Part shown: piece after piece, positions 1-62,657 of the stretch | How positions within the stretch are numbered: the first letter of the stretch is position 1 | Layout: each line of letters begins with the position of its first letter | Assembly (NCBI RefSeq): GCF_009905375.1 | Contig: NC_133648.1 | Span: 28,260,980 to 28,324,979 of the forward strand | DNA length: 64,000 nt | Origin: Apium graveolens | Lineage: Eukaryota; Streptophyta; Magnoliopsida; Apiales; Apiaceae | Direction: 5' to 3' | Notes under the pieces: model-generated | The model's database searches: none | What the model saw: the letters and a program-made list of their open reading frames with translations, nothing else | What the model was told of the DNA's origin: nothing | Program-made: the position numbers and the translations under genes

Positions 1-284
1 TGTCTGGTGCGCCGGTTGTTCATAGCTGTCATAGTCACGTGCCCACGTACCTTCGCTTGGCGGGTTGCGGGATGTGCATGTGCTTGACGGGACCTCCCTC
101 ACTGTGGTTTTAGCCCTGATCCGGACCCGGGTATGCAGGCGGATCCGGATCCGGGAAGTAGGATAGGCCCGGGCCTGGGCTCCTATGTTTGATTGGCCTG
201 GGAGAGGGGGGTCTTAGCATGTTGGTTGAGCCTTCCTCCATTTAGTCCAAGTTGAAGCATACCCGGGTCTGCTATGCCCTATCA
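1..284 (-). repeat. 3' LTR of the Tat element, truncated by window edge
   Basis: This equals positions 470-753 (plus-strand reading) of the complete LTR at 11300-12052, base for base as far as I can read. In element orientation the LTR starts TGATAGGGCATAGC. It contains a CACGTG hexamer at 36-41 and several GATCCGG / CCCGGGT motifs. Confidence 0.95.
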
Positions 285-300
285 TTTGCCCCCCACTCCC
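285..300 (-). other. polypurine tract of the Tat element
   Basis: Read on the minus strand this is GGGAGTGGGGGGCAAA, directly before the LTR start TGATAG. This is the expected plus-strand primer for reverse transcription and fixes the element orientation. Confidence 0.9.
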
Positions 301-361
301 TTATGCAGATCTTCTGGATGAGGGAGTAGAGTAGGATCGCATATTTGGCTTAGAGAAAAGT

Positions 362-608
362 TTCTGCCCCCCAATCCGGATCTGGTGTAATGGATATCAA
401 TCCGGATTAAAGTATAATAGTTGATTAAGAAAAATTTCTGCCCCTGTTGCCATCCAATCCGGATCTGGTGAAATGGATACCAATCCGGATTAAGGTATAG
501 TGGTTGCTCAGGAAAATTTCTGCCCCTGGTTGCCCCCCAATCCGGATCTGGTGAGGTGGATGCCAATCCGGATTAGGGTAGAATTGTTGATGCCTTTGGA
601 AGAATTTA
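362..608. repeat. three tandem copies of an 80-90 bp unit
   Basis: Each unit carries CTGCCCC, then CAATCCGGATCTGGTG, then CAATCCGGATTA, and ends in an A-rich run before ATTT. The copies begin near 362, 437 and 522 and differ by small substitutions and length changes. The array lies between the purine tract and the promoter of the antisense gene. Confidence 0.75.
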
Positions 609-853
609 TGATCCTGGTGGCCTCTGAAATGTATCTTGTTTGCAATGATCCGGATTATGGCTATTGATCCGGGTCTTGGGCTGTGGAATTCGAAAGGTTT
701 TGGGATTTCAATCGGTTTTGCTCATTTTCCCCCCTTTGAATTTGAATTTTGGGCAGTTACTTCCTAGAAACTCGGACCATAATCATTATGGGTTTTAAAT
801 GTGTTTTAATGTGTATTATTTTTTTTTTGTAACCGCTCCTGGAACCAGTAGGA

Positions 854-871
854 TCCTGCCACGTGGCAGGA
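854..871 (+). promoter_or_regulatory. 18-bp perfect palindrome with G-box core
   Basis: The sequence TCCTGCCACGTGGCAGGA equals its own reverse complement. Its core CACGTG (860-865) with flanking GCC/GGC is a classic plant G-box, bound by bZIP and bHLH factors. It lies 22 bp upstream of a TATA box on the plus strand, which suggests it regulates the antisense gene rather than gag-pol. Function is inferred. Confidence 0.6.
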
Positions 872-892
872 GCGGTTTCTCTCCCCTGGGCC

Positions 893-900
893 TATAAAAG
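893..900 (+). promoter_or_regulatory. TATA box of the antisense gene
   Basis: TATAAAAG sits in a GC-rich setting (GGGCCTATAAAAGGC) and is followed about 25-30 bp later by a pyrimidine-rich stretch typical of plant transcription starts. Downstream, up to the first predicted donor at 1066, there is no ATG. The leader would therefore not start translation before 1780. Confidence 0.65.
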
Positions 901-1065
901 GCTGCAGTCCCCTTTCTTTTTTCCTTCTTACTTTTATTCTCCCAAATTCTAAAAAATCCAATAGTTTCTTCTGTTCTTTTTCTCATTTTTCTTCGAAGGC
1001 TTTCACTCTCGGCTTCTTTCTTCCGCCGCTGATTCGCTGTTGCTCCATTCATCTTCAATTGACTT

Positions 1066-1775
1066 GTAAGATCTCTTCTTTCTTGTTTTTTCCATTTGTT
1101 CTTCGATTTTGTTTTTGGAATTTTGATTTTGCATGCTTGAGGTTCGTCTATATTTCTTCGAAGTGAAATCGAGTTTTTTGGTTGTTTTTGTTGCTTGGCT
1201 TTTTGTTTATTTGTAGATCAGTAAGTGTCTCTGTGTTTTAGGCTCGATTTTTGTTGATTTCTATGGGTTTTTTGCACTGTTGTTCTTCGTGTTCTTGGCT
1301 GGGATATATATATATGTATAGGTTAAAAGTGGCATGTTTTGCCTTTTGATTCCCAAGGTAACTGTTTGTGGGTTAGGGTTTTTGTTTGGATCCGGGTCGA
1401 GGGTATAGGATCCGGATCGGGGGTAGGTTTTTGGGTAGAATTGTATGACTTGGGTTTTATCTGTTTTTTGGTTGCTTTTGATCCGGGTGTGGGTGTTTGC
1501 CATGAGGATCTGGGTGTATGGGTTTTGCTTTAAGTTTTTTGTTGCAATGGATCCGGATCTGGGTATTTGCCATCAAGATCCGGGTCCATGGTGGTTTGTT
1601 TTTGTGGATTGTAGTTAACATGATCCGGATCGTTGATGTTTTTCCGGGTTGGACTTGCATTGGTGGTCCAGATCATTAGGTTATGATAAAATTAACATAA
1701 CGTACCTGATCCGGACCACTTAGTAAGACAAATAAAATCTGTAGGGCCCAGATTAACTGACCTTCATTTTAATAG
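1066..1775 (+). other. predicted leader intron of the antisense gene
   Basis: The donor is GACTT|GTAAGAT at 1066. The acceptor is CATTTTAATAG|GTAT, ending at 1775, four bases before the ATG at 1780. The 710-bp interval is T-rich, as plant introns are, and contains repeated GATCCGG motifs. Removing it leaves a spliced 5' leader of roughly 140 bases with no upstream ATG. Long leader introns are common in plant genes and often raise expression. This is predicted from sequence only. Confidence 0.55.
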
Positions 1776-1779
1776 GTAT

Positions 1780-4147
1780 ATGGTCCGGATCAAAGAGAGA
1801 GCTAGGAAAGTATACAACTGCTATCCCAACTTTTCTGACGAGGAGAGTGATCCGGATTCATCTGGTAGAGAACAGATCCAGGGCGAGATGGTTAGAAAGG
1901 GGTCCGGGTCCGTGGGAACAATTACGAGCTTCCGGTTCAAGAGGCTTCCAGAAAACTCTGTTATTTTTACGCCAGAGGGCAGGTGGTCTGATATTAAGTA
2001 TCATTTAATAAGAAAGCCACCCGGGTTCGAGGATAGCATTTATTATACCCGGGTCAGATATGAGAGGCACGAGGATGGGCACCCGGGTATTTATGACCAA
2101 GGTGCTCTGGAAACAGCTTTTGCTTCCTTTGGGATCAGCCGGGATCACTACCAGCTTAAGGATTTTTATGCCGAAGCAGATTCGGGTGATATGGACAATG
2201 CAATCCGGGCTGCTTTTCAATTGACTTCTGACATCGCTTGGAGGTGGCCTGAGCCATATGAGAGGATTTTCCATCGTCCTGCTGATGGTTTTGTCCCGGT
2301 CTGGCTGGAGCATTTAAGGTCCGGGTGGAGCCCCAGGTGGCACATTTTTCTGAAGCACCTTTGTAAGTATGTCTACAAGATTTCTCCTATGCAGATAACT
2401 CCGAATGGGATCAAGTCTATGACCTGGTTCATAGCTTGCTGTAACAAGTCCGGGCTTCTTCCTACCTTCAAGTTATTCCACCAGATTTTTTACCTTTCTA
2501 GGTCAAGCCAGAAACCTTTTTACGAACTGAGATTCCGGGCAGCAGAGTGCGGATTTGGTCCGGGTAGGTCCAAACCAGTCATGCACCAGACCTCTTTGAA
2601 GCATTGGAATGGGGAGATACTGATGTTGAAGGGTTACGATTTGGAGTATCTTCCTTATTTCACGACTGGGGAGGTTAAGACGAAGTTCAACCCAGAGATC
2701 TTAGATGGGGAGGCTGTAGACCAAGTTAGAAAATTTTGTGGTAGTCTCGGGTTCCAGCCAACCCGGGATACGTTTATGAACCATAAACTCATGTTCCAAC
2801 TTGGCTGTGAGTTCTTTTTTAACTTGCCCCTTTTTACTTGATCCGGGTCTCCATCCAAGCTTGGAGAACCGGATTACCTTTCTTTTGCTTGTAACTTGTA
2901 ATCTTTGGTCCGGATCAAGGTCTATTTTGGTCTTTGATCCGGGTCCCCCTGCTTTTCCTGCTTTACTTTTTAGATAATTTGCATAAAACGTCTTGCCATG
3001 GTCCGGGCTCCCTGTAGTATTTCTTTCCGGGTTTGGTAGTCTTCATTTTTATTAATCCTGTGCTTATAGTTTTCTTCTATTTCTCAGGTTTGCCGCATTA
3101 TAACCCTGCAACCCGGGCCATAATGTCTTCCTCAGCATACGCAGCGGCTTTTAACTCTTTGGGGTTGGCATACAAGACAACCAAGGGGGCCCCAGGCACC
3201 GGATCCGGATCTGCGGATGTAGAGGGCGGTGCCGAATCTTCTGCCCCCCGGAATGTTGCTGATCCGGGTAATTCTCCATTGGCCAAGGACCCGGACGTTC
3301 AGGAAATCTCTGAAGAGGAACTTCCTTCGAAGAAGAGGAAGTCCGCCCCGGGGAAGCCTCCCCGCGGAAAAACTGTTGTTGCTGACCGGGTCATATGCGA
3401 CTCGGAGGGGAAGGGACCGGATGGGGCTCCTATCCGGGTAGGGACAAAGAGTCTTATTGATCTGGCCGGGTTCATGTCCAGTATCCCCTCAGAAGAAGAT
3501 TGGGAGGAGGTCGAGGGCTACAACATGGCTGCTGCCTTGAAGAGGGTCACTGGTCAATGGGGGCAGGTAATTTCTGGATTTTTATGCTCTTAGTTCCGGA
3601 TTATGCCTCGAATTTACTTTGTTCTTTGCTCATAGTATTATATATTTTTTTTTTTGTTTCTCAGCTTGGGAGTGCAATTTCCATTTGCTCCGATGTTGCT
3701 TTCACTGAGCTGAAGGAGGCTAACAACCGGACTAAGGCTGAGAAGATTCTCTCCGATTCCCTTAGGGGTGAGCTGGAGGAGGCCCGGGAGGGGTTCCGGG
3801 TGGTGGAGACCGGGCTGAACGAGAAGTTGAAGGACTCTGAGATCCGGGCTGAGGGGCTGGCCCAGGAAGTCGAGAGGCTGAAGGCCGAGCTTGCTGCCAA
3901 AGAGAACCTGAACAAGGAGGCCATCATTGCTGATTTCAAGGCCAGCGACGTCTATGACTTCGAAGTTGCTCAGGCCGGGGTTCCCGAGGTACGCAGGTCC
4001 TGGGTTGTTGCAGAGCGCCATATCAAGACTGACCCTTTTGCTTCCTGGGAGAGCTTTATCCAAGAGTTCCTTGCTGCTAAGGCTGCTGTCGAGCAAGGTC
4101 AAGGGGAACCGGAACCCTATGATGGTCCGAGCCCCAGTTTCCTCTAG
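1780..4147 (+). CDS. antisense spliced gene in the retrotransposon: transposon-domain / coiled-coil protein
   Basis: Three exons, 1780-2806, 3088-3566 and 3665-4147, join in frame to 663 codons including TAG. Intron 2807-3087 has donor GTGAGT and acceptor TTTCTCAG (phase 1). Intron 3567-3664 has donor CAG|GTAATT and acceptor TTTCTCAG (phase 0). Exon 1 (about 342 residues) starts basic, then an acidic stretch, then a folded-looking region whose block near ITPNGIKSMTWFIACC recalls the plant 'putative gypsy type transposon' family (PF04195); this resemblance is from memory, not a search. Exon 2 is low-complexity with a likely nuclear signal (KKRK). Exon 3 is a heptad-like coiled coil rich in E, K, L and A. 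Because the element's genomic RNA is the opposite strand, these introns are not spliced out of it and can survive retrotransposition. Function is unknown; a DNA-binding or gene-control role is only a guess. Confidence 0.7.
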
Positions 4148-4430
4148 ATCCGGATCAGCCTTACAAGGCTTTTCGGGCCCAGACCATGTAATTTCATTTC
4201 TAGGATTCCTTTGTTTGGTACTTTGATTTGAACCATTTGTAATATTTGGATTTATTCCGGATTGATGTCAATCCGGATTAGCCTTTGAATTTCCTTTGAA
4301 AATATTTGCTTTTCTTCCATATTTTGTTCTCTTTTTGTGCAATCCGGATCCTTGTTATGGCCCCTAATCCGGACTTGTTTCATATCGGGTTTGGTCCGGG
4401 TATGGGACAGTGTCCGGATTGATGCTTACT

Positions 4431-4688
4431 TTTTTGCTTTAAGTATTTGAAAACTTAAGTACATAATTGTTGTTTGCGACCTGGATTTGAATGCTAATCC
4501 GGGTTGCTTTTTGCTATTAAATTTGCTTTCAATCCGGGTGTGTCTAACCCGGGTTGTTTGCTTTTTTGCTTTATGTTCCAAGTACATAATGGATTTTTGC
4601 AGCCTGGATTTAAATGTTAATCCGGGTTGCTTTTTGCTTTTAAATTTGCTTTCAATCCGGGTATGTCTAACCCGGATTGGTGATTGCT
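4431..4688. repeat. two tandem copies of a ~128 bp unit
   Basis: Copy 1 is about 4431-4561 and copy 2 about 4562-4688. Each contains TTTTTTGCTTTA, AAGTACATAAT, CCTGGATTT, TAATCCGGGTTGCTTTTTGC, AAATTTGCTTTCAATCCGGG and TGTCTAACCCGG in the same order. They lie between the antisense gene's stop and the end of pol. 4148-4430 holds only AT-rich DNA with scattered CCGG motifs and presumably the antisense gene's 3' end. Confidence 0.75.
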
Positions 4689-4926
4689 CCATTTACTTAG
4701 AATTTTTCTAAGCAAATAGTGGTTGCTTTCGTTTTTTGCTTCTAACCCGGGTGTGAGAAGGTACCCGGGTTGTTGTTTGCTTCCATAACTGGTAATTTAA
4801 AAGTAATAATTTTCTGAAAATGGAAAATTGTTTTCATTGATTTGCAAATTTTTTCATACAAAATATCGGATCATAGATTGGTTGCTTGCCATAGGCTACA
4901 AGTTCTGGTTGCTTTTGTTTGCTTTT

Positions 4927-7900
4927 CTACTGGTAATACTTTCTGAGCCTGAGTCCATGCCATGTATTTGGTACTTCAGAGTCATCCATGTTCATGAGCT
5001 TGTATGTTCCTGGCCTTAAAACTTCCTTGACTTTGTATGGGCCTTCCCACTTCGGCATTAGCTTTCCGGTATTAGTGGGATCTGAAGCTTCTGTGTCTCG
5101 TAGGACCAGATCTCCCACTTGAAAGTTTTTGACCCGGGACTTCTTGCTGAAGTGCTCTTTTGTTTTCTGCTTATACTTTTCCATTCTTGCCACTGCCTGG
5201 TCTCGAACTTCATCGATTAGCTCAATATTCGTTCTGAGCCCCTCCTCGTTTGCTATTTCATCAAAGTTGATTGCTCGATGGGAGGGGGATCCTACTTCAA
5301 TTGGTAGCATGGCTTCAGTTCCATAAGCCAGCTTGAAGGGGGTTTCTCCTGTGCTTGTTCTGGGGCTTGTTCTGTATGCCCAGAGTACATTAGGCAATTC
5401 TTCTGGCCATTTGGTTTTGCTTTCCCTGAGTCTCTTCTCTATCCCCCTGAGAAGTATTCGGTTTGTTACTTCAACTTGGCCATTTCCTTGAGGGTAGGCT
5501 ACTGAAGACTTCTTGTGTCGGATGCCCCTTTCTTGAAGGTACGATTCAAATTCTGAACCGACGAACTGTGGACCATTATCTGAGACAAGTACTCTCGGGA
5601 TCCCAAACCTCATCAATATGTTGTCCATAAACTTGATGCAGTCTCGTTGGTTTATTGTCCTCATCGCCTTTGCCTCTACCCATTTTGTCATATAATCAAT
5701 TGAGACTAGTAGGTACCTGAGGTCTCCCCTTGCCCTGGGAAAGGGTCCCATGATGTCAATTCCCCATACAGCAAATGGGATTGGTGACAAGACTGAAGAA
5801 GGTAGGACGGGGCTCATCCGTGTCACATTACTGAAGAGTTGGCATTCCTTGCACTTTTTCACAAAGTCTGTTGAATCCTGATGGATAGTAGGCCAGTAGT
5901 ACCCCTGCCTTATGATTTTATGAGCTAGTGCTTTTGCGGACATATGGTCCCCGCAGATTCCTTCGTGAACTTCCATGAGGCAGTATTGTGCCTCTCCTGG
6001 GCCTATGCATTTGAGGATGGGGGAGGAGAAGGTCCGGCGATAGAGTATTCCCTCTTCCATGAAGAATTTTGAAGCTTTTGCCTTTAACCTTTGCGCCTTC
6101 CCTTTATCGTCCGGGAGCTCTCCCTTCTCTAAGTAGTTAATGAATGGGGTCATCCAATTTTGAATGTTTTCTATTTCCATTACTTCCTCAGACTCTGTGC
6201 TTGGTTTCTGCAATTCTTCGAAGTAGACGGAGCAATCCAGGTCTGATGAATTTTGAACAAGTTTAGACAATGAATCGGCTTCTGAATTCTCCTCTCTGCT
6301 GATTTGGATGACTTGGACTTTTGGTATGGAGGCCAGGTAGCTTTGGACCAGAGCCTGGTAATTGGCTAGAACTGGATCCTTGGCTATGTACTCGCCGTTT
6401 GTTTGCTTTACGACGATCTGGGAATCGCTGTAGATTTTGAGATTCTGGATCCTGAGTGTTCTTGCTAACTTCAATCCTGCAGTCAAAGCCTCGTACTCTG
6501 CCTGGTTGTTTGTTGCTGAGAATGCAAAGGATATTGCTGTTTGGATTGTGAACCCTTCCGGGCTCTTTAGGATGAGCCCGGCTCCTGATCTTTCATTTGT
6601 TGAAGAACCATCAACGTTGAGAGCCCAGGCTTCTGTTTCTTGATCTATGTTTGTCTCAGTCTCAATGCACATGGGCGCGGGCTCTTCTTCCGGGAAATTG
6701 CATTCTATGATGAAATCAGCTAGAGCCTGGGCTTTGATTGCTGTTCTAGGAATGAAAGTGAGGTTGAACTGACTCAGCTCAACTGCCCAATTTACCAACC
6801 TCCCTGAGATATCTGGCTTGTGTATTATCTTCCTTAATGGTTGATTTGTTACCACCCGTATTTCCCTTCCCTGAAAGTAGTGTCTGAGTTTCCTGGATGC
6901 TGTGACTAATGCGTAGGCAAACTTTTCTAGGCTCGGGTAACGGGTCTCTGCATCTTTTAGCACTTGGCTTACGTAATAAACTGGTTGCTGTTTGCCATGC
7001 TCTTCCCTGATCAACGCTGCCCCAACTGCCAGGGCCCCTGCTGAAAGATAAAGGGATAGGGGCTCCCCGGGTTGAGCTTTTGTTAATACAGGGGGTTGAG
7101 AAAGGTACCTTTTTACTTCTTCAAATGCTCTTTGGCATTCTGGGCTCCAATTAACTTCTCTCTTATTGGTTGCTCCTTTTAACAGGTCGAAGAAGGGTAG
7201 GCATCTCTCAGCTAGCTTGGAGATGAATCTTCTGAGTGCGGCCAGTGATCCTGCTAGCTTCTGCACATCTTTTTGTGTTCTTGGGGCCTTCATCTCTTGT
7301 ATTGCCTTTATTTTTTCTGGGTTGGCCTCAATTCCTCGGTTGCTTATCATGAATCCCAGAAATTTTCCTGCCCCTACACCAAATGTGCATTTTTCTGGAT
7401 TGAGCCTGAGTGAGTATTTCCTCAAGTTGTCGAAGCACTCTCTCAGGTCTCCAATGTGGCCGGCTATGCTTGTGGATTTTGCGATCATATCGTCTACATA
7501 GGATTCCAGGTTTCTTCCAATCTGGTCCTTGAAGATTTTATTCATTGCCCTTTGATATGTTGTTCCCGCATTAGTCAATCCAAATGGCAGCATCACATAG
7601 GCATAGACCGCCCTGTGGGTTATGAATGCTGTCTTTAAAATGTCTCTGGGATTCATCCTGATCTGGTTGTAACCCGAGTAGGCGTCCATGAAGCTTAGCA
7701 TGACATGCCCAGAGGTTGCATCGATCAGTTGATCAATATTTGGCAAGGGGTAGGGATCTTTGGGGCATGCACTGTTCAAATCTGTGTAATCGATACACAT
7801 TCTCCACTTTCCGTTTGGTTTTTTCACCATCACCACATTTGCCAGCCATTCTGGGTATTTAACTTCGCATATTATTCCAGCTTTTAGTAATTTCTCAATT

Positions 7901-10824
7901 TCCTCATCAATCGCTTTCTGCCTTTCCGGGGCAAAATTTCTTCTCTTTTGCTTGACTGGTCTCCTCTCTGGGTTGACGTCCAAGCTATGCATTGCTATGG
8001 ATTCATCCAAACCGGGCATTTCTTTCGGGGTCCAGGCGAATATATCAGAGTACCCTTGGATTAGTGACACCAGTTCTTTTCTGAAGTTAGCTTCGAGTCC
8101 GGACCCTATCTTTATCTTTTTTGAAGGATCGCTTCTACTGATCAGGATTGCTTCTGTTTCAACAGCGGCCTCTATCTTGGATTGAGCCGTTTCTGAAACC
8201 ATCTTTTGGATCCGAGCCTCTGTATTCTTCTTCATATAAATTTGAGCCTGGGCTCCCATCTCATTTTGGTTGCTTTTCCCTTTTTCAATTGTTTCAGGGT
8301 TGGTTGCTTGCACAGTAGGGTTGATCTGGCCAAGGCCTAGGTTCAATTCAATCCCTTCTGTGACTTGGTTGGTTTTTTGCTCTTTTGAGCTTGGTATGGT
8401 TACTTTCGGATTTGAGAGGGACTCTATTACCTGAACTTCTTTCCTCGCATCGTCCCTTGAGTGGGGGCGATGTTTCTTAATACTTTGTTGTTTCCGGAGT
8501 ACCACGGCCTTTCTCTTGTTGTCTTGGTGGGTTTCAGCCATTACCAGAGCCTGGCTGTAACATCTTTCAGCTACTTCATAGTCTCCCTTGATTTCTCCTA
8601 CCCCGGTCGGAGTTGGGAATTTGATTTTCAAATGTGATATGGAGGTGATTGCTTGGATCCTGGTCAATGCCGAGCGCCCGATTATGCCGTTGTAGGATGA
8701 AGGAGTATTGATCACGTAGAACTTTATCACATGGGTAACTTGGTTTGAGCCTGATCCGAATACGACTGGCAAGTATAAAGTTCCCTGGATCGGGACCAAG
8801 TTGTTCCCGAACCCATACAGAGGGTCCTCTTGGCATTCATTGGAGCGTACGCTCCCAAGTTTCATCCTGTCCACAGTATGCTTGAAGAGTATATTTACTG
8901 AAGATCCATTATCGATCAGCATCCTTCTCACTTCGTTATCAAAGATGTCGAGTGTTACCACCAAGGCTTCGTTGTGATTTGGGTTGACCCCTTCATAATC
9001 TTTGCTGCTGAATGAGATCATCATCTCCGGGTAGGATTGGATTGAGAATACCTCATCTCCTGAGCCCGGGCTCCTCGGGGGAGAATGTGAGCCTCCCAGG
9101 ACCACATTTACCACATTCTTACCTTTTCTTTGTCTTTCCTCTCTCTGATTTTTCTCCCTTGAGATGTATTGATTCAAGTTGCCTTTCTTGACTTGATCTT
9201 CGATGAAGTATTTTAAAGAGAGACAATTTTCAGTCTTGTGCCCATGGGTTTCATGATAGTCGCACTGCCTGTTGTAAGGCCTGCTCTCTGGCGGAGTCTG
9301 CATTGGCTTTGGAGGATAGTAGAATGGCTTTCCCTTGATCTCCTTCAGTATCTCTTCCCGGGTTCTGTTTAGTTGTGTCCACTCTGGCTCTTGCCTGGGC
9401 TCCCTTTGCTGCCTAGGGGGACCGGGATCACTTTTGGACTCTGTTTTAGGACCCAATCTTTGGAAAATTGGGGTGCTTTGCACCACATTTGTTTGCTGGG
9501 TTTGGTTGCTTTGTTTGAACTTTTTCTCCTGATGGTAACCCCCTTTCGGTCGGTCATCAGAAGATTTGTTCCTGTTCCCTCCATTCCGAGTCATTCTCAT
9601 CGCCTGGAGAACATCTGTTTCTTTTATGAACCGGGCTGCCATGGAATAAGCCGCGGCCAGGCTTTGGGGCTCTTTGTTTATCAACTCCACAATATACCTC
9701 TCATTGTGTTCTGGATCCAGGTTTCTTCGAAATATGCTTAGAGCCTCCCTTTCATCGAGATTCGAGACTTTGTTAATGGCTTCCTGGAACCTCCGCATAT
9801 AGGCTGAAAGTGCTTCGTTATCATATTGGCGGATTGTCTCCAGGTGGCACATGTGCATTTCATGTGTCTTATTGGCTCTGAATCTTCTAAGGAAGGCTCC
9901 TCTGAATTCTTTCCAGGAGTGGATGCTTCTTGATGGGATCCTGCTGAACCATCTTTGAGCCCCCCCTTTGAGGGTCGAGGCGAAGAATCTAGATTTCGTC
10001 AAGTCATTGTAATAGTATATCTGAGCTATTTGTTCAAAGTAGTTGAGGTGCTCTTCCGGATCCCCAAGTCCGTCGAAAGAGTCAAAGTTGTAATGTTTGA
10101 GATTTTTCTGTCGAGGGATGGCTTCTAGGGAGTGACTGAAGGGCGTTAGGGTCTCCTCAACTTCCACCCCGGATTCTTTCTCCATTTTTCTCTGGAGCTC
10201 GTAAATCATGTCCTTGAGATCTTTCTGACCCTCCTCTTCGTCATCAGAAATAAGTTCGGGGGTAGGGTCCCTCCGAGTTCTTTTGCCTCTTGTCTTAGCG
10301 AGGAGCCTCTCCTCCTCCACCTGCATTCTTTTCTGAATTTTTTGCTCTAGCTTTTCTTCTTCTTCTTTTCTTATCTTTTCTCTGATTTCTTCTAACTTTT
10401 TCTTTCTGGTTGCTTCTGTCTCCTTTTTACTAGGCTCTTTTTGATTCTTTTTTGCCTTAGCCCCAATTCGGTCGAAGACAGATCTCCTGGATTGCTGAGA
10501 GTCCCCGGACTCTTCTTGCTCATCATCTTGTTCAAATTCCATCTGAGCCCGGGCTTGTTCATCTCTGTAGAGCCTGATTGCTTCAGCAAGTTCATGGCTT
10601 GTTAAGTTAGCCATATGCTCCTCTGCAACTGGAACATTGGTGTACTTGTACTGATTTAGCTCTATGACATTTCTAGCATCCCTGATTGGTGTATGCTGTG
10701 TCAGTGGTTGCTCCTGGAAGGTCTCCCTGTCTCCCCCAGGTTCTTGAACTTGAGAGGGGTCTTGATCCTGAATATGTGTACTGGCAGAGGGCCTACCAGC
10801 TGTACTTTTTCCTGCTCTTGCCAT
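4927..10824 (-). CDS. gag-pol: gag-pol polyprotein of the Tat element, intact (1965 aa)
   Basis: One uninterrupted frame encodes capsid, protease, reverse transcriptase, two RNase H domains and integrase. Visible, in order: a charged coiled-coil N-terminus; gag core about 245-410; a Cys-His knuckle CDYHETHGHKTENC near 520; protease DNGSS near 638; RT with YVDD near 1109; a gypsy RNase H near 1255-1370 that lacks the first catalytic Asp (LYLSAG); a second archaeal-type RNase H near 1395-1525 with the D, E, D, D residues in NVDGSS, AEYEA, SDSQ and EADS; integrase with an HHCC finger near 1620-1660 and the D, D, E residues in GIDIMG, SDNGPQF and GQVE. Start chosen at 10824, the first real ATG; the two upstream codons are GTG. 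TAG ends it at 4927. With identical LTRs, this copy may be competent. Splitting into mature proteins must be by the protease. Confidence 0.95.
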   Translation of the reverse strand: MARAGKSTAGRPSASTHIQDQDPSQVQEPGGDRETFQEQPLTQHTPIRDARNVIELNQYKYTNVPVAEEHMANLTSHELAEAIRLYRDEQARAQMEFEQDDEQEESGDSQQSRRSVFDRIGAKAKKNQKEPSKKETEATRKKKLEEIREKIRKEEEEKLEQKIQKRMQVEEERLLAKTRGKRTRRDPTPELISDDEEEGQKDLKDMIYELQRKMEKESGVEVEETLTPFSHSLEAIPRQKNLKHYNFDSFDGLGDPEEHLNYFEQIAQIYYYNDLTKSRFFASTLKGGAQRWFSRIPSRSIHSWKEFRGAFLRRFRANKTHEMHMCHLETIRQYDNEALSAYMRRFQEAINKVSNLDEREALSIFRRNLDPEHNERYIVELINKEPQSLAAAYSMAARFIKETDVLQAMRMTRNGGNRNKSSDDRPKGGYHQEKKFKQSNQTQQTNVVQSTPIFQRLGPKTESKSDPGPPRQQREPRQEPEWTQLNRTREEILKEIKGKPFYYPPKPMQTPPESRPYNRQCDYHETHGHKTENCLSLKYFIEDQVKKGNLNQYISREKNQREERQRKGKNVVNVVLGGSHSPPRSPGSGDEVFSIQSYPEMMISFSSKDYEGVNPNHNEALVVTLDIFDNEVRRMLIDNGSSVNILFKHTVDRMKLGSVRSNECQEDPLYGFGNNLVPIQGTLYLPVVFGSGSNQVTHVIKFYVINTPSSYNGIIGRSALTRIQAITSISHLKIKFPTPTGVGEIKGDYEVAERCYSQALVMAETHQDNKRKAVVLRKQQSIKKHRPHSRDDARKEVQVIESLSNPKVTIPSSKEQKTNQVTEGIELNLGLGQINPTVQATNPETIEKGKSNQNEMGAQAQIYMKKNTEARIQKMVSETAQSKIEAAVETEAILISRSDPSKKIKIGSGLEANFRKELVSLIQGYSDIFAWTPKEMPGLDESIAMHSLDVNPERRPVKQKRRNFAPERQKAIDEEIEKLLKAGIICEVKYPEWLANVVMVKKPNGKWRMCIDYTDLNSACPKDPYPLPNIDQLIDATSGHVMLSFMDAYSGYNQIRMNPRDILKTAFITHRAVYAYVMLPFGLTNAGTTYQRAMNKIFKDQIGRNLESYVDDMIAKSTSIAGHIGDLRECFDNLRKYSLRLNPEKCTFGVGAGKFLGFMISNRGIEANPEKIKAIQEMKAPRTQKDVQKLAGSLAALRRFISKLAERCLPFFDLLKGATNKREVNWSPECQRAFEEVKRYLSQPPVLTKAQPGEPLSLYLSAGALAVGAALIREEHGKQQPVYYVSQVLKDAETRYPSLEKFAYALVTASRKLRHYFQGREIRVVTNQPLRKIIHKPDISGRLVNWAVELSQFNLTFIPRTAIKAQALADFIIECNFPEEEPAPMCIETETNIDQETEAWALNVDGSSTNERSGAGLILKSPEGFTIQTAISFAFSATNNQAEYEALTAGLKLARTLRIQNLKIYSDSQIVVKQTNGEYIAKDPVLANYQALVQSYLASIPKVQVIQISREENSEADSLSKLVQNSSDLDCSVYFEELQKPSTESEEVMEIENIQNWMTPFINYLEKGELPDDKGKAQRLKAKASKFFMEEGILYRRTFSSPILKCIGPGEAQYCLMEVHEGICGDHMSAKALAHKIIRQGYYWPTIHQDSTDFVKKCKECQLFSNVTRMSPVLPSSVLSPIPFAVWGIDIMGPFPRARGDLRYLLVSIDYMTKWVEAKAMRTINQRDCIKFMDNILMRFGIPRVLVSDNGPQFVGSEFESYLQERGIRHKKSSVAYPQGNGQVEVTNRILLRGIEKRLRESKTKWPEELPNVLWAYRTSPRTSTGETPFKLAYGTEAMLPIEVGSPSHRAINFDEIANEEGLRTNIELIDEVRDQAVARMEKYKQKTKEHFSKKSRVKNFQVGDLVLRDTEASDPTNTGKLMPKWEGPYKVKEVLRPGTYKLMNMDDSEVPNTWHGLRLRKYYQ

Positions 10825-11279
10825 CACCACAAATGTACAAACAACTGACCAAGATTTGAGGCTACAAATGTGGATCTGGGGTTGCTTTTTTGAATATTAC
10901 AAAAATTTTCCAGAATAACAAGAAGCAAACTTTCTGGGTTTCGCTAACAATAATACCAAACAAGAACAGCAGGCTCTTGAACACAAAAGAAAATACGCAA
11001 GCTAAAACAGTTCTGGGTTTTAAATCACCAAGACTATTAAACCCCAGGCTTCAAGATTATCAAGATTATCAAACCCTAAACAACTAAAACTTAACAAACA
11101 AGAGCGGGCTCACACAAACGTGGCCTAAAGCAACAAGCTCACACAAACGTGGCTATAATGAACATTCATATTCAAGAAAGGGTTTGGTTGTTTATGTTCT
11201 TACAGGTTTGAAAGTGGACTCTCTCAAGAGTTTTGCTGATGAAGATGAATCCAGGGGCACCGAGACCCAAGGATGGAGC
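10825..11279 (-). other. untranslated leader of the Tat element
   Basis: About 455 bases lie between the primer site and the gag ATG. It is AT-rich near gag and holds no convincing coding frame. The plus-strand stretch contains a repeated phrase, CTCACACAAACGTGGC, at 11110 and 11141. Confidence 0.6.
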
Positions 11280-11297
11280 CCCCTCCTTCTAGCGCCA
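11280..11297 (-). other. primer binding site, tRNA-Asn type
   Basis: Read on the minus strand this is TGGCGCTAGAAGGAGGGG, two bases after the 5' LTR end. Its complement, CCCCTCCTTCTAGCGCCA, matches the 3' end of plant tRNA-Asn (GUU) as I know it, with CCA added. Most plant gypsy and copia elements use initiator tRNA-Met, as the other elements in this window do. Confidence 0.8.
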
Positions 11298-11299
11298 AA

Positions 11300-12052
11300 T
11301 GATAACTCCGGAGAGCGGGTGGCTCCGTCCGTTGGCGTTCCTGGACCTTCCGTGCGTGAGAGAGGTGTAGCTGTAGGTTGGGCGCCTGCAAAACAACACC
11401 GGAAGGGGGGTTTGGCTCCCACGGCGCCTCCGGTGTAAGAATAAGAACAGGCTTTGGAGAAGATGAAGGTATATATATATTTATGTAATTTAGAGGCTGC
11501 TGTGTATGTGTGTTTTTATGTGATGGCTGCTGTATGTTTTTGAGTGTATGTGAGTGTGTGAGTGCAAGAGAAATTATTTTCCAACCCCTAAACCCTTCAG
11601 TCTTGGGGTATATATAGCCCCAAGGTAGGGTTTAGGGGTAGTTACCTCTAAATCTGGGCCGTTGGATGTCTGGGACCAGAGGACGCCTGGCTTGGGTGGA
11701 TTGTTTACACGTGTCCAGGGGAGGACCACCTCCAGAGTGTCCAAACGGCCTCTGACACGCGCAGTGCTTGTCTGGTGCGCCGGTTGTTCATAGCTGTCAT
11801 AGTCACGTGCCCACGTACCTTCGCTTGGCGGGTTGCGGGATGTGCATGTGCTTGACGGGACCTCCCTCACTGTGGTTTTAGCCCTGATCCGGACCCGGGT
11901 ATGCAGGCGGATCCGGATCCGGGAAGTAGGATAGGCCCGGGCCTGGGCTCCTATGTTTGATTGGCCTGGGAGAGGGGGGTCTTAGCATGTTGGTTGAGCC
12001 TTCCTCCATTTAGTCCAAGTTGAAGCATACCCGGGTCTGCTATGCCCTATCA
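11300..12052 (-). repeat. complete 5' LTR of the Tat element (753 bp)
   Basis: The limits are set by the primer site at 11280-11297 on one side and by loss of identity with the 3' copy after TATCA at 12052 on the other. In element orientation it starts TGATAGGG and ends GTTATCA. It contains a promoter-like TATA at 11609-11616 and CACGTG at 11804-11809. Confidence 0.93.
11609..11616 (-). promoter_or_regulatory. LTR TATA box for gag-pol transcription
   Basis: TATATATA lies about 440 bases into the LTR in element orientation. It is framed by inverted arms CTTGGGG (11602-11608) and CCCCAAG (11618-11624). No other equally good TATA lies at this distance from the LTR start, so it is the likely genomic RNA promoter. 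Confidence 0.6.
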
Positions 12053-39137: not shown

Positions 39138-40691
39138 TGTGACGGCCTCGACATCGGGGTCAGGAGTTGACGTCACCAACAACAATAATAACAAACATAA
39201 TAGAATCCAAATCACTAATTATACATAACCACGACCCCTTTACCAAGACCTTTTCCAGGTTTAAGTATGATTTAGGTTACAACTATTGCAAAACCGACTT
39301 ACAACAAACCATCCTGACGTAACTAACTTTATACAACAACTCAATAGACCATTCTTGGTCCAACACAACTATCTTAGAGGAGCCTAACACGGAAGGATCT
39401 GGAACTCTGCCCTGACTGCCACGGAAGAAACTCCTAGGCATCTGCAATACATATATAAAATATCCTGCAAGGGTGAGCAATCAATTGCTCAGCAGTACCA
39501 CTATATGAATAACAAGTAAAATAATTTATGGTAAAACAATTATAGAAACAAAATTCATAACTTGTTAGAAAACAAATAAAATATTCAGAAACTGGATATT
39601 CAAAACTAGCATGCTCTGTAAAACCATATCATCAGTCGTGTGCTGTGTATAAATATCAGAGTTCAATTTTAGCATGCTATTTTCATTCCCAAAACCACTG
39701 TTCCATTACAGGAAGCATAAAACCATCTGTCTCGTTATGGGGACAACAAAACTATTTGTTCCGTTACTGGAACCCTAAACCATAATCAGATATGTATTGG
39801 ATGTTATCTAGGGACGCCTGATCAGGCCTCCACACAATTATCTAGAAAAGTTGGTCGGGCTATCACACAAAATGTCTAGGAAAGCTGATCGGGATTTCAC
39901 ATAAAATAATCGGATCCGTAGAGACTAGCTAGGTCTCTGATTAACTATGCTGGACTAATCAGTTATGAATTGCGCGCAACCGAATTAGCCACTTACGCAA
40001 CGTTATCAATATCTGATTCGTTTTATCCAGCTTTAAAATTTACTTTTATAATTATAGGACTCAGAATAATCATCACGGTCCACCGTCGACTCGCCGAGGC
40101 TCATCGTCAACGGCGGAAAAACACGTTGGTGCCCGATAAATTCAGGTTTCCCAACGAGTTCTACCGATTAATTTAATTTTCCCGCATAATATATTTTTAT
40201 ATCACTAAGTTTACTCAATGATTTTCTGCAGAAAAATATATAAGAAATTCCCAAAATAATTTTAAAATTCTCAGAATATTGTAAACTTAAATAATATAAG
40301 TTTCGTAATTTTTGAAGAATTCTGGAATTAAATACGGATTTTACAAATAAATACAATCAGAAAATCATACATGGCTAAATAATTGATGAAATATTGATTT
40401 CTAAATTTATAAAATCCCAAAAATAATTATTGAATTATAAAATCATAAAAATAATTTTAGAGACAATCCAAATTTTAATGCAAATAAATCTGCTATAAAA
40501 CCACTTTTAAAAGTAATAACTAGACAATACAGCTCAACAAACAATTATGAAAATAATCCTCGTAAACCACCAACCACACGTAACTAATAATAAAACAACA
40601 CACGGCTGACAGAACCCATACACATATTTTATTTATTTAATAGTTCCATAATTACACATTTAAATAATATGAAAATACGCGAGTCGTTATA
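39138..40691 (-). repeat. 3' LTR of element A, with ~940-bp internal deletion
   Basis: Plus-strand limits are TGTGACGGCCTCG and GTCGTTATA. It aligns to 59711-62209, but everything between about 60627 and 61565 of that copy is absent here. The break lies in CACTTTTATAATTATAGG, with short TTTAT homology at both edges. Confidence 0.85.
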
Positions 40692-40710
40692 TCCTTCCCC
40701 CCTTAAAAAG
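40692..40710 (-). other. polypurine tract of element A
   Basis: Minus-strand CTTTTTAAGGGGGGAAGGA abuts the LTR start TATAACGA. Element B has a comparable tract at 46692-46706. Confidence 0.75.
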
Positions 40711-42516: not shown

Positions 42517-44571
42517 TGTAACACCCCCAGATCCGGGGTCGGGAATCCGGGTTGTCACGGTCTTTCTTTCCACAATATCACTTTACTTAATTAATAATAA
42601 ATACCCTCATGCTGTGACCCCACACTAACACACACCACAACTCGTTATAGTCTCAGAGATGAAATTGAAATAAGTACAAGTCTTTGAATCCACAATTTAA
42701 AATTATTACAACCCAAAATGATTACTTGATAATTTACAGTTAATTGCCATTATCTGCCACAAGTTATAATTATACATAATTGGATTCTCAAAAGTAGATG
42801 GTCTAAACTACAATGGATCTACCTCTGCAGCTATAGCAGCTACAATATCAGCGGGAAGACGCGGGACGCTTCCCACGCGCTTGCGCTGGGTCTGCTGGAG
42901 TCTGGCCATCTCTCCTAACTGTTGTTGTGTGATGAAGAAATAAAGCAAGAGTGAGCCTTACAGCTCGCAAGATAATATGTAGTGATAACAATAATACAAG
43001 TATCTAAGTGGATACTTACTAAAATCTTTATCGTGTGTAAGATAATTACTTACTAGATATAAGTAAAAACAAGGAATGAAGTTACCAATACTTCCCCACA
43101 CTTATATCATTTATAAATCTACTTGAACTATCACCGTTCAAAGTATAATAAAATTCACGAGGTCATCCCATAGATGAGACCACAAATAAACTTGAAAATA
43201 TTTGATCTTTGAAATATTTTGAAAAGAAATGAAGTTACGAGATACTTCATTCAATGGATACACCAATAAAATGTTTGACCCTGTCAATGCTTCGGCAACC
43301 ACCCATTAGTAGCCTTTCGATCGAAATGCTACGGGTAGTGTTGCAGAATTATCCAAATGGATGATGAACTCATTACGGGAGTTTACTGCGCCAGGAAGAC
43401 CACTTACGATGATCAGTCGTAGTAGTACAACCCCACCATTTTCTACATGTAGAGGAGAACCTGTCGGATTTACTTGTCAACCGAACACTGAACTCCTAAG
43501 GAATGGACCGCCTTAGCGGAACTTCCAGGCCATTTGGGCCAATATAATAAGGCTGGGCCGGCGCTACTCGACCACTTACGCCACTCCTAGTTCAGATGAA
43601 ATCCATGACTCTGAAACGTAAAGCTCGTTTCCCCCTTTCCCCAAGTAGAAACTTGTTGATACGGCTCCACCAAGAAGTCGTATCTAGTTGGAAAGGAAAA
43701 CTCACCGATATTTCCCAGGCGATGCCTGTTAATGGATTAACTTGTTCCAAGAATTTTACTTCCCGAATATTGGGTAAGTAATCAAAAAACTCTTTTACCA
43801 AGACATCAACCTTGTTGCGAATATAAAACACACCACCGAGCCGGACTCCCCAGGTTTTTGAGCGAGTATTTAAATCCCCTTTAAAAAGGAAGATCTTAAA
43901 TATAAAAATGAGTTTTGGGATCCGCTCTGACTTTTAAAAATCATTTTGAAGACTCGAAAATACTTTAAAGAGTGTTTGGAGTAAGACTGATTTAATGAAG
44001 TAAATCAGTCCCCAGAATATTAGAAAATATCTGAATATTATTAATTAAATAATATTCCCATAAAGAATAATCTTTATAAAAATAATTGAAGTAGAAGTAT
44101 TAAATTTATACTTGAAACGAGTATTAAATAACCCAAGATATACTTATATGAAAGTATTATCTTTATTTGAATAATCGAAAATAAGTTTGATTATTTACAC
44201 CTTATTCTTTAATAAAATAAAGAATATATCTCAGCGAATAATCGGAGTCATAGATCCTCAAATGAATATTCAAATAATATTCAATAAATAAAATACGCTG
44301 AGTCATAATACCTCGAATGAATATTATAAATAATATTCATTAAATAAAATAAAGGAGTCATACATCCTCAAATGAATATTCAAATAATATTCATAAATAA
44401 TATAAAAGAGTCATAAGCCTTCGAATGAATATTCAAATAATATTCAATAAATAAATAAAAGGAGTCATAAGTCCTTGAATAATATTCGAAATAATATTCA
44501 ATAATAAAATAAAGTTTAAAGTTATCGAATAAACCTTATTCGATTAATAGTTTGGAAAACTATAACCATAT

Positions 44572-44609
<38 letters not shown>

Positions 44610-46691
44610 CCATATCCATATATACAAGATTACTCGGGATCCTCGACTCCCGGTTTTAGAAAATATTTTCACCTTTGGGTCCCTATACTAAGGGTATATG
44701 CAAGATACAACTATCCTCTAGCATAGGTATTATCAAATAACCAACAGATATAAATTTCAAGAATATGAAACAGGCATGCATATATACCATATCACATGCT
44801 ACAATATATCGCAAAAATTTGCTATCAACAATCATGCAATATCACAAGATAATGCATATACATATGTTTACATCACAACAACAGTATAACGGATAGAATA
44901 CTTGCCTGAGCGACTTGGGGGTGAGAAAGGCTCGGGACGAGTCTGGCAACCTATAAACAACAAGTAAGTTGGAATTAAACCAAAATCACTTGTAAGTCTA
45001 TGCTTTAACTAACTTAGACTCTAATGCTAGTTTTACGCTCACCGATACGCTTAAGTCACTCGGGTACCCTCGGCTCCACCATTTTTAATAACTTGACCTT
45101 TACGAGTTTTAACGCGATTCCTTCGCGAATGACTTACCAACTGCCTAACACACTTACCATAAATGTTTCATACATTAATTAACCCTTTTTGGTCTTTAAC
45201 CTACATTCCAAAATAAGGCGAGGGAAAAAGTTTCGTTCGCGAAACGCCGTTACTTGAAACGGTCGTTTCTCCTAAACCGTAAATCGGAATCGAACGAACT
45301 ACATATCAAAACGAAGCTCGTAACATGAGCTATCTAAACATGGCAGTGGTCACAATTTAACAGGGGGTTCTCGGGTCCTAATGCTATGCACAAAACAGTC
45401 CAAAGAAAATCGGACATTACGACGGCTATGTTTACGCGATTTCCCATTTTTTAAACTACCCACAATCAACACAAACCATCCTCAAATCCAACACACAACA
45501 AACACCCATCCTTATCACATCATAACAACCCCAACCAATTCAATTTAACCAATCATACATATGTTTAAACTTTACTTTAATCATACTTAAGTTTCTTTAA
45601 ATCAAAACCACAAAATTACCATCTCATTTCACTACCATACCAAACCTCAAACTCTAATCATATCAACAAGATACCATAACATCCTACTCATCAAAATCAC
45701 CTTATAACATATAAGAACCTAGGGTTTGAAAATGGTATACCTTCCTTGAAGTGGTGGGTTGAGCTAGGAAGCCTTAAGAAGCTTGGAGAAGCCTTAGGTA
45801 AGCTTGGATCTTCAAGAAAACATGAAAAGTTCAAGTTAAAAAAACTTGAAAACACTATTCATTGTCTTCTTCATTGTTTAAATGAAGAAGCTAGAGAAAG
45901 AATTAATGGCTCAAACTCATGATATAGCCATTACTAAGCATAAGGATGGTTAGGGAATTTTCTTACCAATTAAGGATGCTTTGATCTTGATTTTTGAAAA
46001 TTTTATGCCTTGGAAAATGAAGAAGGCCGAGAGCAAATATGAGGAATATGCCTTGGCTGATTTTTTGATGAAATGATTTGCTAGTTGGTTGGCTTGGTTT
46101 TGTTTTTGATTTAGCAAATTACCACCTTGTCCTTGAATTTGTGTGGTCTTAAATCAACCACACTTCCTTCCTTTCATGTCATGCTTATGTCACCCTTATG
46201 ATGTCATCCTCCCTTCCTTGTCTTCTTTCTATTGGTTGGATGACATCACTCCCCTTAATCCCTTTGATTAGCTTCCTAATCGTTTGCCTAATGACCGCTG
46301 ATCTGTTGTACGGTTCGCTTAACTTTCGTTCTCGTTTATCGTTTGAAGGATCATACCCGGGATCTTATTACTTAGGTTCCCTTGACCTTTCTCAATACAT
46401 TATATTCCTTTTTATGATCCTCTATTATAATCCTTTAATTTAAATCCTTTTTATCCTGTTACCTTATACTCAATTCTCTCCGTATCTTGTGGATTTCCGG
46501 GAAAAACCAAAGTGTTCGGAATTGGGTTCTGACGATATTTACATACACTTATATACTTCATATAGTACTAATAAAATCCCAGAATATCCATAACAGAACC
46601 CCTACATAGTGTGGCGTGAAAAGTTTTCTCATTCAGCTAAAACACTATTCACAAGGGTTACAAAAAGTTGAAAAATTTTGGGGTTATTACA
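42517..46691 (-). repeat. 3' LTR of element B (4175 bp)
   Basis: It starts TGTAACACCCCCAG and ends GGGTTATTACA. Differences from the 5' copy: T43387 versus C53623, T43806 versus G54042, T43961 versus C54197, and one extra AT in the (TA)n tract near 44566-44612. There is no credible gene inside; the frames at 43592-43831 and 46198-46443 are short and recur only because the LTR is duplicated. Confidence 0.95.
44225..44520. repeat. minisatellite in B LTR (five ~58-bp units)
   Basis: Units of GAGTCATA(A/G)...CCTCGAATGAATATTCAAATAATATTCAATAAATAAA, each containing the near-palindrome GAATATT...AATATTC. The same array is in the other LTR at 54461-54756. Followed by a (TA)n tract. Confidence 0.75.
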
Positions 46692-46724: not shown

Positions 46725-48158
46725 TCAAACAGAAAACAATTGGGGGTACTTTTCTAGCATTGCGCTCTCTAGTTCCCAAGTCGATTCTTCCACATTATGA
46801 TTCTGCCATAGTACTCTGACTAGCTTGATCACCTTGTTCCGAAGCACCTGCTCCTTCTTATCCATAATCCTTACTGGCTTCTCCACGTAAGTTAGATCTG
46901 GCTGCATATCCACCTGCTCGTACTCCACTATGTGCCTGGCATCTCGATGATACCTCCTTAGCATTGACACATGGAACACATTATGAACTTGTTGCAAATT
47001 AGGGGGTAGGGCTAGCTCGTAAGCTAACTTTCCAATCCGTCTTAATATCTCAAAAGGTCCAATGTATCTTGGGCTTAGTTTTCCTTTCTTTCCGAACCTC
47101 ATTAATCCCTTCCAAGGGGATACTTTCAACAGTACTAAGTCCCCTACCTCATATTCCTTGTCCTTTCGGGCTAGGTCTGCATATTTCTTCTGTCTGTCTT
47201 GGGCTGCTACAAGTCGCCCTCTGATAAGATCCACTATATCTTTGGTCCTTTGGACCACTTCGGGTCCGAGCATCTTCCGCTCTCCTACTTCATCCCAGTA
47301 TAAGGGAGATCGACACCTTCTTCCGTACAAGGCCTCATAAGGCGGCATCCCGATGCTAGCATGAAAGCTATTGTTATAAGAAAACTCGATCAACGGCAGG
47401 TGATCATCCCAACTTCCTTTAAGGTCTATTGCACAGACTCTCAACATATCCTCTAGTGTCTGGATGGTCCTTTCACTCTGTCCATCCGTCTGGGGATGGT
47501 ACGCGGTACTCATATTTAACTTGGTCCCCGCACATTCCTGAAAGCTCCTCCAAAATCTGGAGTTGAACCTTGGGTCTCGGTCTGAGACAATGGACGCTGG
47601 GACTCCATGTCGCGTCACTATTTCCTTAAGGTAAATGTCGACCAGTCTATCGACTGTATATCTCTCGTTGATAGGAATGAAATGAGCTGACTTTGTCAGT
47701 CGGTCTATAATTACCCAAATGGCGTCGTGATTGGCTTTCGTCCTTGGCAAGCCTACAACAAAATCCATCGCTATCTGTTCCCATTTCCATTCGGGAATCT
47801 CCAGGGGTCGCAAAAGTCCACTGGGTCTCTGGTGCTCTGCCTTTACTCTTTGGCAAGTCAAACACTTGTTCACCCATTCTGCTACGTCCCTCTTCATGTT
47901 GGGCCACCAGTAATATTCCTTCAAATCCCTATACATCTTGGTACTTCCTGGGTGAATGGAATACCTTGAACTATGGCTTTCATCCAAAATCTCATCTTTA
48001 AGTTCTTGAACATTCGGAACCCAAATTCGGTAGGAGTACCTCATTATCCCTTTATCATCTTTCTCAGTATGGATCTCTTCTCCAGTCATTGACTTTCTGT
48101 CTTCATTCATTATTTTCTCTTGGCACAATCTGATCTTTTCCAATAATTCTGGCTGCAT
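46725..48158 (-). pseudogene. pol: integrase and chromodomain part of element B pol
   Basis: A 477-residue open frame from the first ATG (48158); the same frame is open upstream to a stop at 48231-48233 but has no earlier ATG. Integrase HHCC finger (HSSRYSIHPGSTKMYRDL...CLTCQ) near residues 60-110, then the D, D, E core in AMDFVVGLP, VSDRDPRF and GQSERT near 130-235. A GPY/F-like region (YIGPFEILRR) follows, then a chromodomain-like tail ending ESTWELESAMLEKYP. In an intact element this is fused behind RNase H. Here the frames differ by one base step at the 48206-48230 break, so it would not be made as part of the polyprotein without frameshifting. Confidence 0.88.
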
Positions 48159-48177
48159 TGAGATCTCAAAAAGCTTT

Positions 48178-51100: not shown

Positions 51101-51414
51101 GCATTGTTACTTCCTTGAGGGGGTGGGTTGGGTTGACGTTCCAAATTCTGTCTTAGGAGTTGCATGAACTGGCTCATGGGATCCATGCCTGGGTTTGGTA
51201 CTGGTTGCTCAACCTCGGTTTCTCCTTCTTCAGCCTCTACCTCGAATCCCTCAACATCATACGTTTCCTCTTCCTCTTCATACAGGGAGTCATCCTGTTC
51301 CACATAATCCTCATCTTCCTCTTCACTGTGATCTTGGTTTCTATTGTCCTGATTATGGCTTCCCTGGTCCTCAGACCCAGGGTTCGCCCTAGTTCCAATC
51401 TTTCTTGGCGGCAT
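48178..51414 (-). CDS. gag-pol: gag-protease-RT-RNase H polyprotein of element B, C-terminally cut
   Basis: 1078 residues from ATG 51414 ([11 protein letters not shown]). An acidic N-terminus (about 25-75) precedes gag (about 105-290: [19 protein letters not shown]). Three Cys-His segments lie near 350-407: [12 protein letters not shown] (short), then canonical [14 protein letters not shown] and [14 protein letters not shown]. Protease DSGATKSF is near 463, RT FIDD near 795, and RNase [10 protein letters not shown] near 950 with FTDHKSLKY. After the conserved DALSRKE the frame enters an LTR-end copy and stops at 48178-48180, separating it from integrase. All catalytic motifs up to that point are present. 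ATG context and length fit the family. Confidence 0.92.
48206..48230. repeat. 25-bp copy of B's LTR terminus inside pol
   Basis: It is identical to the first 25 bases (plus strand) of B's LTRs at 42517 and 52753, beginning TGTAACACCCCCAGATCC. It lies at the RNase H-integrase junction and coincides with the frame break of pol. The following bases (TTATCATT) do not match the LTR. Confidence 0.9.
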
Positions 51415-51826
51415 GATTCTGATAATAATAAAAACAATTATTGGGAAAAATTCAACGTTAGGTCACAATCATATACAACATTGTGCCTTGCACAGCTCTT
51501 ATAATGGGGAGAACGTATATCGCAATTCTATTATTTTAAGAAAGTTCTAATACGAAGTGCAGTAATAACAATAATAAAACAGTGATCCCGTCACTATGGA
51601 ACTGAACTGAAAGGAAACAAATATATACATAATGCGAGAATACATAGTTTGATCTGGTCAAAAGTACAACAGTGCTACAGTCATCTGTCCCAAAAGTGAT
51701 ACACAAGAGTCTATCTGTCTAGTCAGAAAAAGGGATGCTATATACAAGTCAACTATCCCGGAAAATTGGCTCTTACTAAGGCCTCGGCTAACTAGACAAC
51801 TAGACTATTCCATCATCAATCCTGAA

Positions 51827-54807: not shown

Positions 54808-54843
<36 letters not shown>

Positions 54844-62209: not shown

Positions 62210-62657
62210 TCCAGCCTCTCTTGATTCTTTTTAGTGAGACACTTGCATCCCCTCCAGGAATTGCGAATTGACTGGATATAATACTTTTCCAATTGATCGG
62301 GAATAATGTAACATTGCTTAAATAAAATTCAAGAAAAAATCAAAAGAATTAATAAGAAATATTAGTGTATCAGAATTGTTATTTATTTATTTAAACATCA
62401 GAATAATTAATACAATACCTTTACATAATTCCACATATTCTTCTTCAAGGTCTTTGGAACATGAGCCTAATTTTTGTAAGTTAGTGATACACACCTCCTC
62501 AGCGTTCCCAAAAAACATCCCATCTCAGCTCTAATTGTATCATCATCTGCTACAGGTTGGAACTTGTGATTCATTCTTATGACAACTCGTTTGTCGACTG
62601 ACCTAGTATGAACTTTATCCATCCTAGTCTTTCCCGTAGGTCTTACAGGAGCTTTAT
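62210..62657 (-). pseudogene. TNP1/Transposase_24-like gene of the CACTA element, upstream exons
   Basis: Exon 62657 to about 62422: acceptor CTTGTAG at its 5' side, then KTRMDKVHTRSVDKRVVIRM and GCFLGTLRRCVSL, the Transposase_24 signature. An in-frame TAG near 62467 follows YKN, and an MWNYVK block precedes donor AAG|GTATTG. Exon 62316-62210: acceptor TATTTAAG, then YYIQSIRNSWRGCKCLTKK; it runs straight into element A's target duplication and resumes at 39137. The premature TAG means the gene was probably inactive whether before or after the LTR insertion. Confidence 0.75.

Follow-up and report, generated by a model that had tools for sequence, protein, structure and literature searches.

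The element and its antisense gene

The stretch of celery (Apium graveolens) DNA analysed here, referred to below as the window, comprises 64,000 nucleotides, and its left end is occupied by an LTR retrotransposon that reads on the minus strand. The 5′ LTR lies at 11300-12052 and the inner part of the 3′ LTR at 1-284 (both minus strand); the latter is identical to 11769-12052, the rest of it lies to the left of the window, and the common part holds 3 copies of the octamer AYCCGGRT in each LTR. When the full LTR pair was compared with the help of a 1-kb piece extending past the window edge (L031), the two LTRs measured 754 and 753 bp and showed 0 substitutions and a single 1-base gap, and a target duplication, CCCTC, flanks the element on either side. 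The insertion is young, as the original prediction had it. Between the LTRs, gag-pol runs as a single minus-strand frame (4927-10824) that contains no AYCCGGRT; profile searches in three pieces found gag, RT, RNase H and integrase domains, in the order of Ty3/gypsy elements, and no protease family at E 0.001 in those pieces. Two short tandem repeats, one of 83 bp in 2.7 copies (365-591, two octamers per unit) and one of 123 bp in 1.8 copies (4457-4679, octamers present), lie between gag-pol and the 3′ LTR. The LTRs of 753-754 bp, the internal part of about 11.0 kb and the pol-3′LTR region of about 4.6 kb all fall within the Retand ranges given in PMC11963269 (315-1,194 bp, 7,380-12,869 bp and about 2.9-6.6 kb, respectively). 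Judged from the position of the PF04195 gene described below, the domain order and these sizes, the element is classed as a Retand-type Ty3/gypsy element with an antisense TRP28 gene.

This gene occupies the plus strand between the end of gag-pol and the 3′ LTR. A complete spliced antisense gene with canonical GT-AG introns and a 662-residue frame had been predicted at 893-4147, and the G-box, the TATA box, the ATG-free leader, all three introns and the frame were found there. Their conservation was assessed in the window's own 3.33-Gb genome with exon 2 as query (118 scored matches among 8429 candidates): 30 loci, ranked by exon-2 protein similarity, were taken as 4-kb pieces, L001 being the window's own copy. 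To these were added 19 longer copies, comprising 8 of the same loci and 11 of lower rank. The G-box (857-868) has its CACGTG core in all 30 loci and in 18 of the 19 longer copies; the TATA box, CTATAAAAGG at 892-901, reads CTATAAAA in 30/30 loci, with TATAAA in 18/19 longer copies. The leader exon (925-1065, its start placed approximately from the TATA box) is free of ATG, as is the plus strand from 861 to 1065. It is followed by the leader intron (1066-1775; GT and AG each in 30/30 loci), exon 2 (1776-2806) with the ATG at 1780 and the Transposase_28 domain, intron 2 (2807-3087; GT and AG each in 29/30), exon 3 (3088-3566), in which a basic, NLS-like stretch, SKKRK, is discernible by eye, intron 3 (3567-3664; GT and AG each in 30/30), and exon 4 (3665-4147) with the stop codon at 4145-4147.

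The profile search bears out the suggested PF04195 (Transposase_28) membership, with a match at residues 177-239 (E 1.1e-7, 32.4 bits, cut-off 26.2) and matches in 19 of 19 alignment members (E<=1). The suggested link to the plant mobile domain (PMD) finds no support: at E<=1 these 19 members matched 9 Pfam-A families between them, none of which is a PMD profile, though a remote relation may exist. The joint between exons 3 and 4 recurs in a 308-residue celery database protein, P0024, which is identical to the two exons joined at 3566/3665. That the gene is real and coding is close to certain; its transcription would proceed from its own promoter, the signals of which are predicted from the sequence. 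Two celery gene models, P0001 and P0003, begin with residues that resemble a plus-strand reading of the LTR (window 11192-11438, 5′ LTR) and pass from this LTR-like start into the accessory gene near the acceptor at 1775/1776. Such models may mean that antisense transcription can also begin in the LTR, as it does in HTLV, or they may be artefacts of gene prediction.

Farther along the window, a second LTR-like pair is present at 42517-44869 and 52753-55103 (99-100% alike, 10.2 kb apart), with a minus-strand gag-pol in two overlapping frames of 1094 and 501 aa between them (46725-51462) and ATCCGGGT once per copy (42545 and 52781). It is flanked by repeats at 39138-40704 and 59711-62222 (90-94% identity, 20.6-21.5 kb apart); these may belong to an older element into which the younger, second one inserted.

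Selection on the protein and persistence of the introns

In the 30 loci, GT and AG dinucleotides are retained at 178 of 180 splice positions, and in the 19 longer copies the canonical dinucleotides stand at 109 of 114. Exon lengths are nearly fixed (exon 2 in 30/30 loci, exon 3 in 28/30 and exon 4 in 27/30), and intron lengths vary (618-741, 208-297 and 85-112 bp for introns 1, 2 and 3). Joining the exons gives an open frame in 20 loci, a frame with one stop in 7 and a frameshifted one in 3. The median dN/dS is 0.089 (323 of 351 pairs, those with dS above 0.03) in a set of 27 sequences from which L001 and three frameshifted copies (L010, L011, L018) were excluded. The pattern that would have spoken against the gene at the DNA level, random stops in the joined frame with a dN/dS near 1, is not what the other copies show. 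By exon, dN/dS is 0.098, 0.111 and 0.070 for exons 2, 3 and 4; the exon 2 value is biased low, because similarity in the exon-2 protein decided the ranking of copies, and exons 3 and 4 had no role in the selection of copies. On these substitution ratios, the protein is judged to be under strong purifying selection. Searches for TRP28-like exon candidates in the genome returned overlapping, unscored sets of 8429, 5813, 13359 and 6198, and TRP28-like genes therefore seem to be very numerous in celery.

The alignment runs through all three introns in 30/30 loci, in agreement with the earlier proposal that the element carries an intron-bearing coding gene from copy to copy. The splice sites would be readable in plus-strand RNA only, and gag-pol-sense genomic RNA would leave the introns in and carry them intact into every new copy. 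This route of intron carriage fits the presence of the introns throughout the 30 loci. It is the opposite of the usual loss of introns in retrocopies, and the case shows how an intron-bearing gene can persist through rounds of RNA-based copying if it points against gag-pol.

Protein searches listed 14, 29 and 35 proteins, with Apium, Heracleum and Daucus as the named sources. Among 22 homologues that cover the end of exon 2, 8 show the spliced reading, with L or R following the cysteine; in 13 the sequence carries on past the junction with K or E, which is what translation of a GTRA donor would give, and one differs. Intron 2 would therefore predate the split of the Apium, Heracleum and Daucus lineages, provided that the gene models and our reading of K and E are right.

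A selected octamer array

The octamer array, absent from the original prediction, is a more surprising feature than the gene, and it offers a testable function. Across 1-4926 there are 37 AYCCGGRT, 54 RYCCGGRY and 78 CCGG, spanning the LTR part, both sides of the antisense promoter, the introns, the coding exons (7 of the 37 AYCCGGRT) and the 3′ region. In the window as a whole, 44 AYCCGGRT are observed against 1.96 expected; apart from the 37, there are 3 in the 5′ LTR, which duplicate those of the 3′ LTR, 0 in the 5.9 kb of gag-pol, and 4 in the 52 kb beyond the element. CCGG density falls in parallel, from 15.8 per kb in 1-4926 to 3.9 in gag-pol and 1.1 beyond the element. Synonymous shuffling of the spliced frame gave 2.4 RYCCGGRY against the 16 present, with 0 of 2000 shuffles as high, and four control words stood at expectation; the same treatment of gag-pol gave 0.3 AYCCGGRT against 0 present, with CCGG and one control word raised. 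The octamer is asymmetric between strands in noncoding stretches of 20 sequences (ATCCGGGT 174 times, ACCCGGAT 40 times), and the T-richness of the strand may explain this.

Conservation of the sites argues for selection on the DNA itself. At 16 noncoding sites in 24 loci, with the window and its six nearest copies excluded, the eight positions are kept at 0.94-0.98, the next base to the right drops to 0.75, and the left edge is gradual; the CG within CCGG is kept in 467 of 494 cases and other CGs in 191 of 498. A separate footprint of 27 noncoding sites drew on the longer copies other than L044 (18 of 19). Identity at the sites was 0.932, whereas random octamers containing 4 or more G+C gave 0.762, and 0 of 20000 samples were as high. 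When the octamers were hidden before alignment, the footprint stood at 0.83-0.90 against 0.755 outside, and CG was kept in 521/620 cases against 170/458; the aligner inflates the footprint but does not create it. Within the coding exons, four-fold sites are kept in 436 of 480 cases in RYCCGGRY (91%) and in 300 of 321 in other CCGG, against 2581 of 3964 elsewhere (65%). Octamers are fewer in some copies, with 0 in the 5′ stretch of L005. From these comparisons, AYCCGGRT is judged to be selected at the DNA level.

A related celery family carries a different motif. In the window's family (A), the 19 longer copies (94 kb) hold 643 AYCCGGRT and 11 [GC]TCCGGA[GC], and family A2, with an exon-2 protein 73% identical, holds 142 and 0 in 24 kb. 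The order is reversed in family B, whose exon-2 protein is 53% identical: 10 AYCCGGRT and 268 [GC]TCCGGA[GC] in 48 kb, with 3 and 39 in two diverged B copies (9 kb) and 0 and 11 in one further B copy (2 kb). Codon shuffling of exon 2 gave 0.72 A-type octamers against the 5 present in A2, which has 0 of the B type, and 0.60 B-type octamers against the 4 present in B, which has 0 of the A type. The splice signals around exon 2 in B are as in A, and one B copy has the same G-box, TATA box and ATG-free leader. Seven of the eight positions of the B octamers are conserved at 0.95-1.00, the last at 0.66, and the ends are often not self-complementary (GTCCGGAG 29 and GTCCGGAT 37 of 170). In both families, the start codon adjoins an octamer-like site (window 1780-1790; L071 for B), ATGGTCCGGAT in A and ATGGTCCGGAC in B. 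Thus, by sequence comparison, the octamer differs between families with diverged proteins. Since the motif classes differ in effect once, A and A2 against B is in effect a single contrast, and the match between protein and motif may be shared history.

What the accessory protein may do

The simplest reading that covers the gene, the array and the motif difference is that the accessory protein binds the octamers. Structure models of the protein were of modest confidence (mean pLDDT 53 and 66) and a fold search gave no match, so the case for binding is built on sequence comparison together with the DNA-binding residues predicted for the TRP28 domain (PMC11963269); on this footing we consider binding slightly better than an even bet. 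The protein, with its NLS-like stretch in exon 3, would work in the nucleus and would bind octamers across kilobases of its own element, keeping the LTR and its own promoter accessible or unmethylated, much as VANC does for VANDAL elements. Because the octamer differs between families with diverged proteins, a given protein would chiefly affect elements closely related to its own. The anti-silencing role is tentative, and we would not put it at even chances; by analogy with VANC, relief of silencing is our first choice, with activation of the LTR or of the gene's own promoter close behind. Taken as a whole, a Retand-type self-recognition, in which a nuclear protein encoded by the spliced antisense gene recognises the CCGG-centred octamer of its own family throughout the 3′ region, the LTR and even the exons that encode it, and thereby frees kin copies alone from silencing, is a proposal we regard as plausible yet still short of probable.

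A different division of labor has to be weighed: a host protein, be it a transcription factor or a chromatin protein, would occupy the octamers and activate or repress the LTR and antisense promoters, and the protein of the real gene would have another task, such as aiding nuclear entry of the pre-integration complex. The array does cover part of the LTR and both flanks of the antisense promoter, and protein and motif have no direct tie; but sites are also present in the introns, the coding exons and the 3′ region, well in excess of what a promoter would require, and two families in one genome, served by one set of host factors, have different octamers. We regard this as unlikely, though it deserves more weight than the other alternatives. 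That the octamers act in RNA, as near-palindromes aiding dimerisation, packaging or pairing of genomic or antisense RNA, would suit their presence in exons, introns and LTR alike and the excess of ATCCGGGT, which can self-pair via G-U, over ACCCGGAT, which cannot. However, this orientation skew tracks the base composition of the strand (T 0.395, A 0.205), the B octamers often lack self-complementary ends, and gag-pol, which is also part of the genomic RNA, has no octamers at all, making an RNA role improbable.

It is more doubtful still that the octamers are a functionless by-product of repeat growth or mutation bias. Octamers do occur in the two short tandem arrays, and some copies, such as L005, have fewer sites, but the footprint and the conservation of four-fold sites speak against it, and the retention of CG within CCGG relative to CG elsewhere is the opposite of methylation-driven decay. 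An equally slim chance is given to the view that the antisense RNA, rather than the protein, does the work, with gag-pol RNA or the 3′ LTR as its target and double-stranded RNA or interference as its means. Antisense transcription is reported for Grande and Retand, and an RNA role has been proposed (PMC7264820); the dN/dS of 0.07-0.11 in each coding exon nevertheless shows that the protein is selected, which leaves room for an additional RNA role.

Protein-octamer binding thus remains the preferred reading, and the class of gene to which it would apply is already known. Antisense TRP28 (PF04195) genes mark Retand elements, being present in 97% of Retand clusters and in nearly all recently active ones, with predicted DNA binding and a function given as unknown (Vicient 2025, PMC11963269). 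The celery gene resembles them in lying antisense between pol and the 3′ LTR, in an element with tandem repeats in the pol-3′LTR region and fitting sizes, and celery is among the species surveyed. It differs in that the survey counts ORFs, whereas the present analysis brings out the gene's three introns, its promoter arrangement and the surrounding octamers; moreover, the window's LTR is longer than those of the three listed celery clusters (548-570 bp). Grande gene23 is likewise an antisense accessory gene in a long 3′ region, and its own upstream promoter and nuclear product, predicted here, are reported there (PMC7264820). A word count of PMC11963269 and PMC7264820 shows no use of "intron", and the literature searched, by title and abstract and with most subscription papers outside its scope, yielded no description of introns in antisense TRP28 genes or of a motif array tied to such genes. 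What looks new here is the octamer array in cis, selected and differing between families. A selected, family-specific motif over the gene region makes TRP28 function addressable by one binding assay. If the proposal is true, it would supply a function for the antisense genes of most Retand elements and, to our knowledge, the first co-evolving protein-and-site system in a retrotransposon.

For a regulatory gene lying antisense in the 3′ portion of a retroelement there is a precedent in HBZ of HTLV-1, of which a spliced form exists, although its protein family is unrelated to TRP28. The antisense promoter of HTLV lies in the 3′ LTR (PMC7264820), and HBZ is mentioned in the Retand survey (PMC11963269). 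The closer functional parallel is VANC, the VANDAL protein that binds a motif of its own element and removes methylation, with different motifs in related families (PMC5735166, PMC10398659). As in VANDAL, the celery element has many copies of a short motif that differs between related families. VANDAL elements are, however, DNA transposons with the motif in noncoding tandem repeats, and here it also occupies the LTR and, for 7 of 37 AYCCGGRT, the coding exons. Moreover, no VANC-like domain is among the Pfam matches, and binding here is predicted from sequence; the proposed likeness is one of function, and the accessory protein is not a VANC. Should it nonetheless act against silencing, DNA transposons and retrotransposons would have arrived at similar countermeasures to host methylation.
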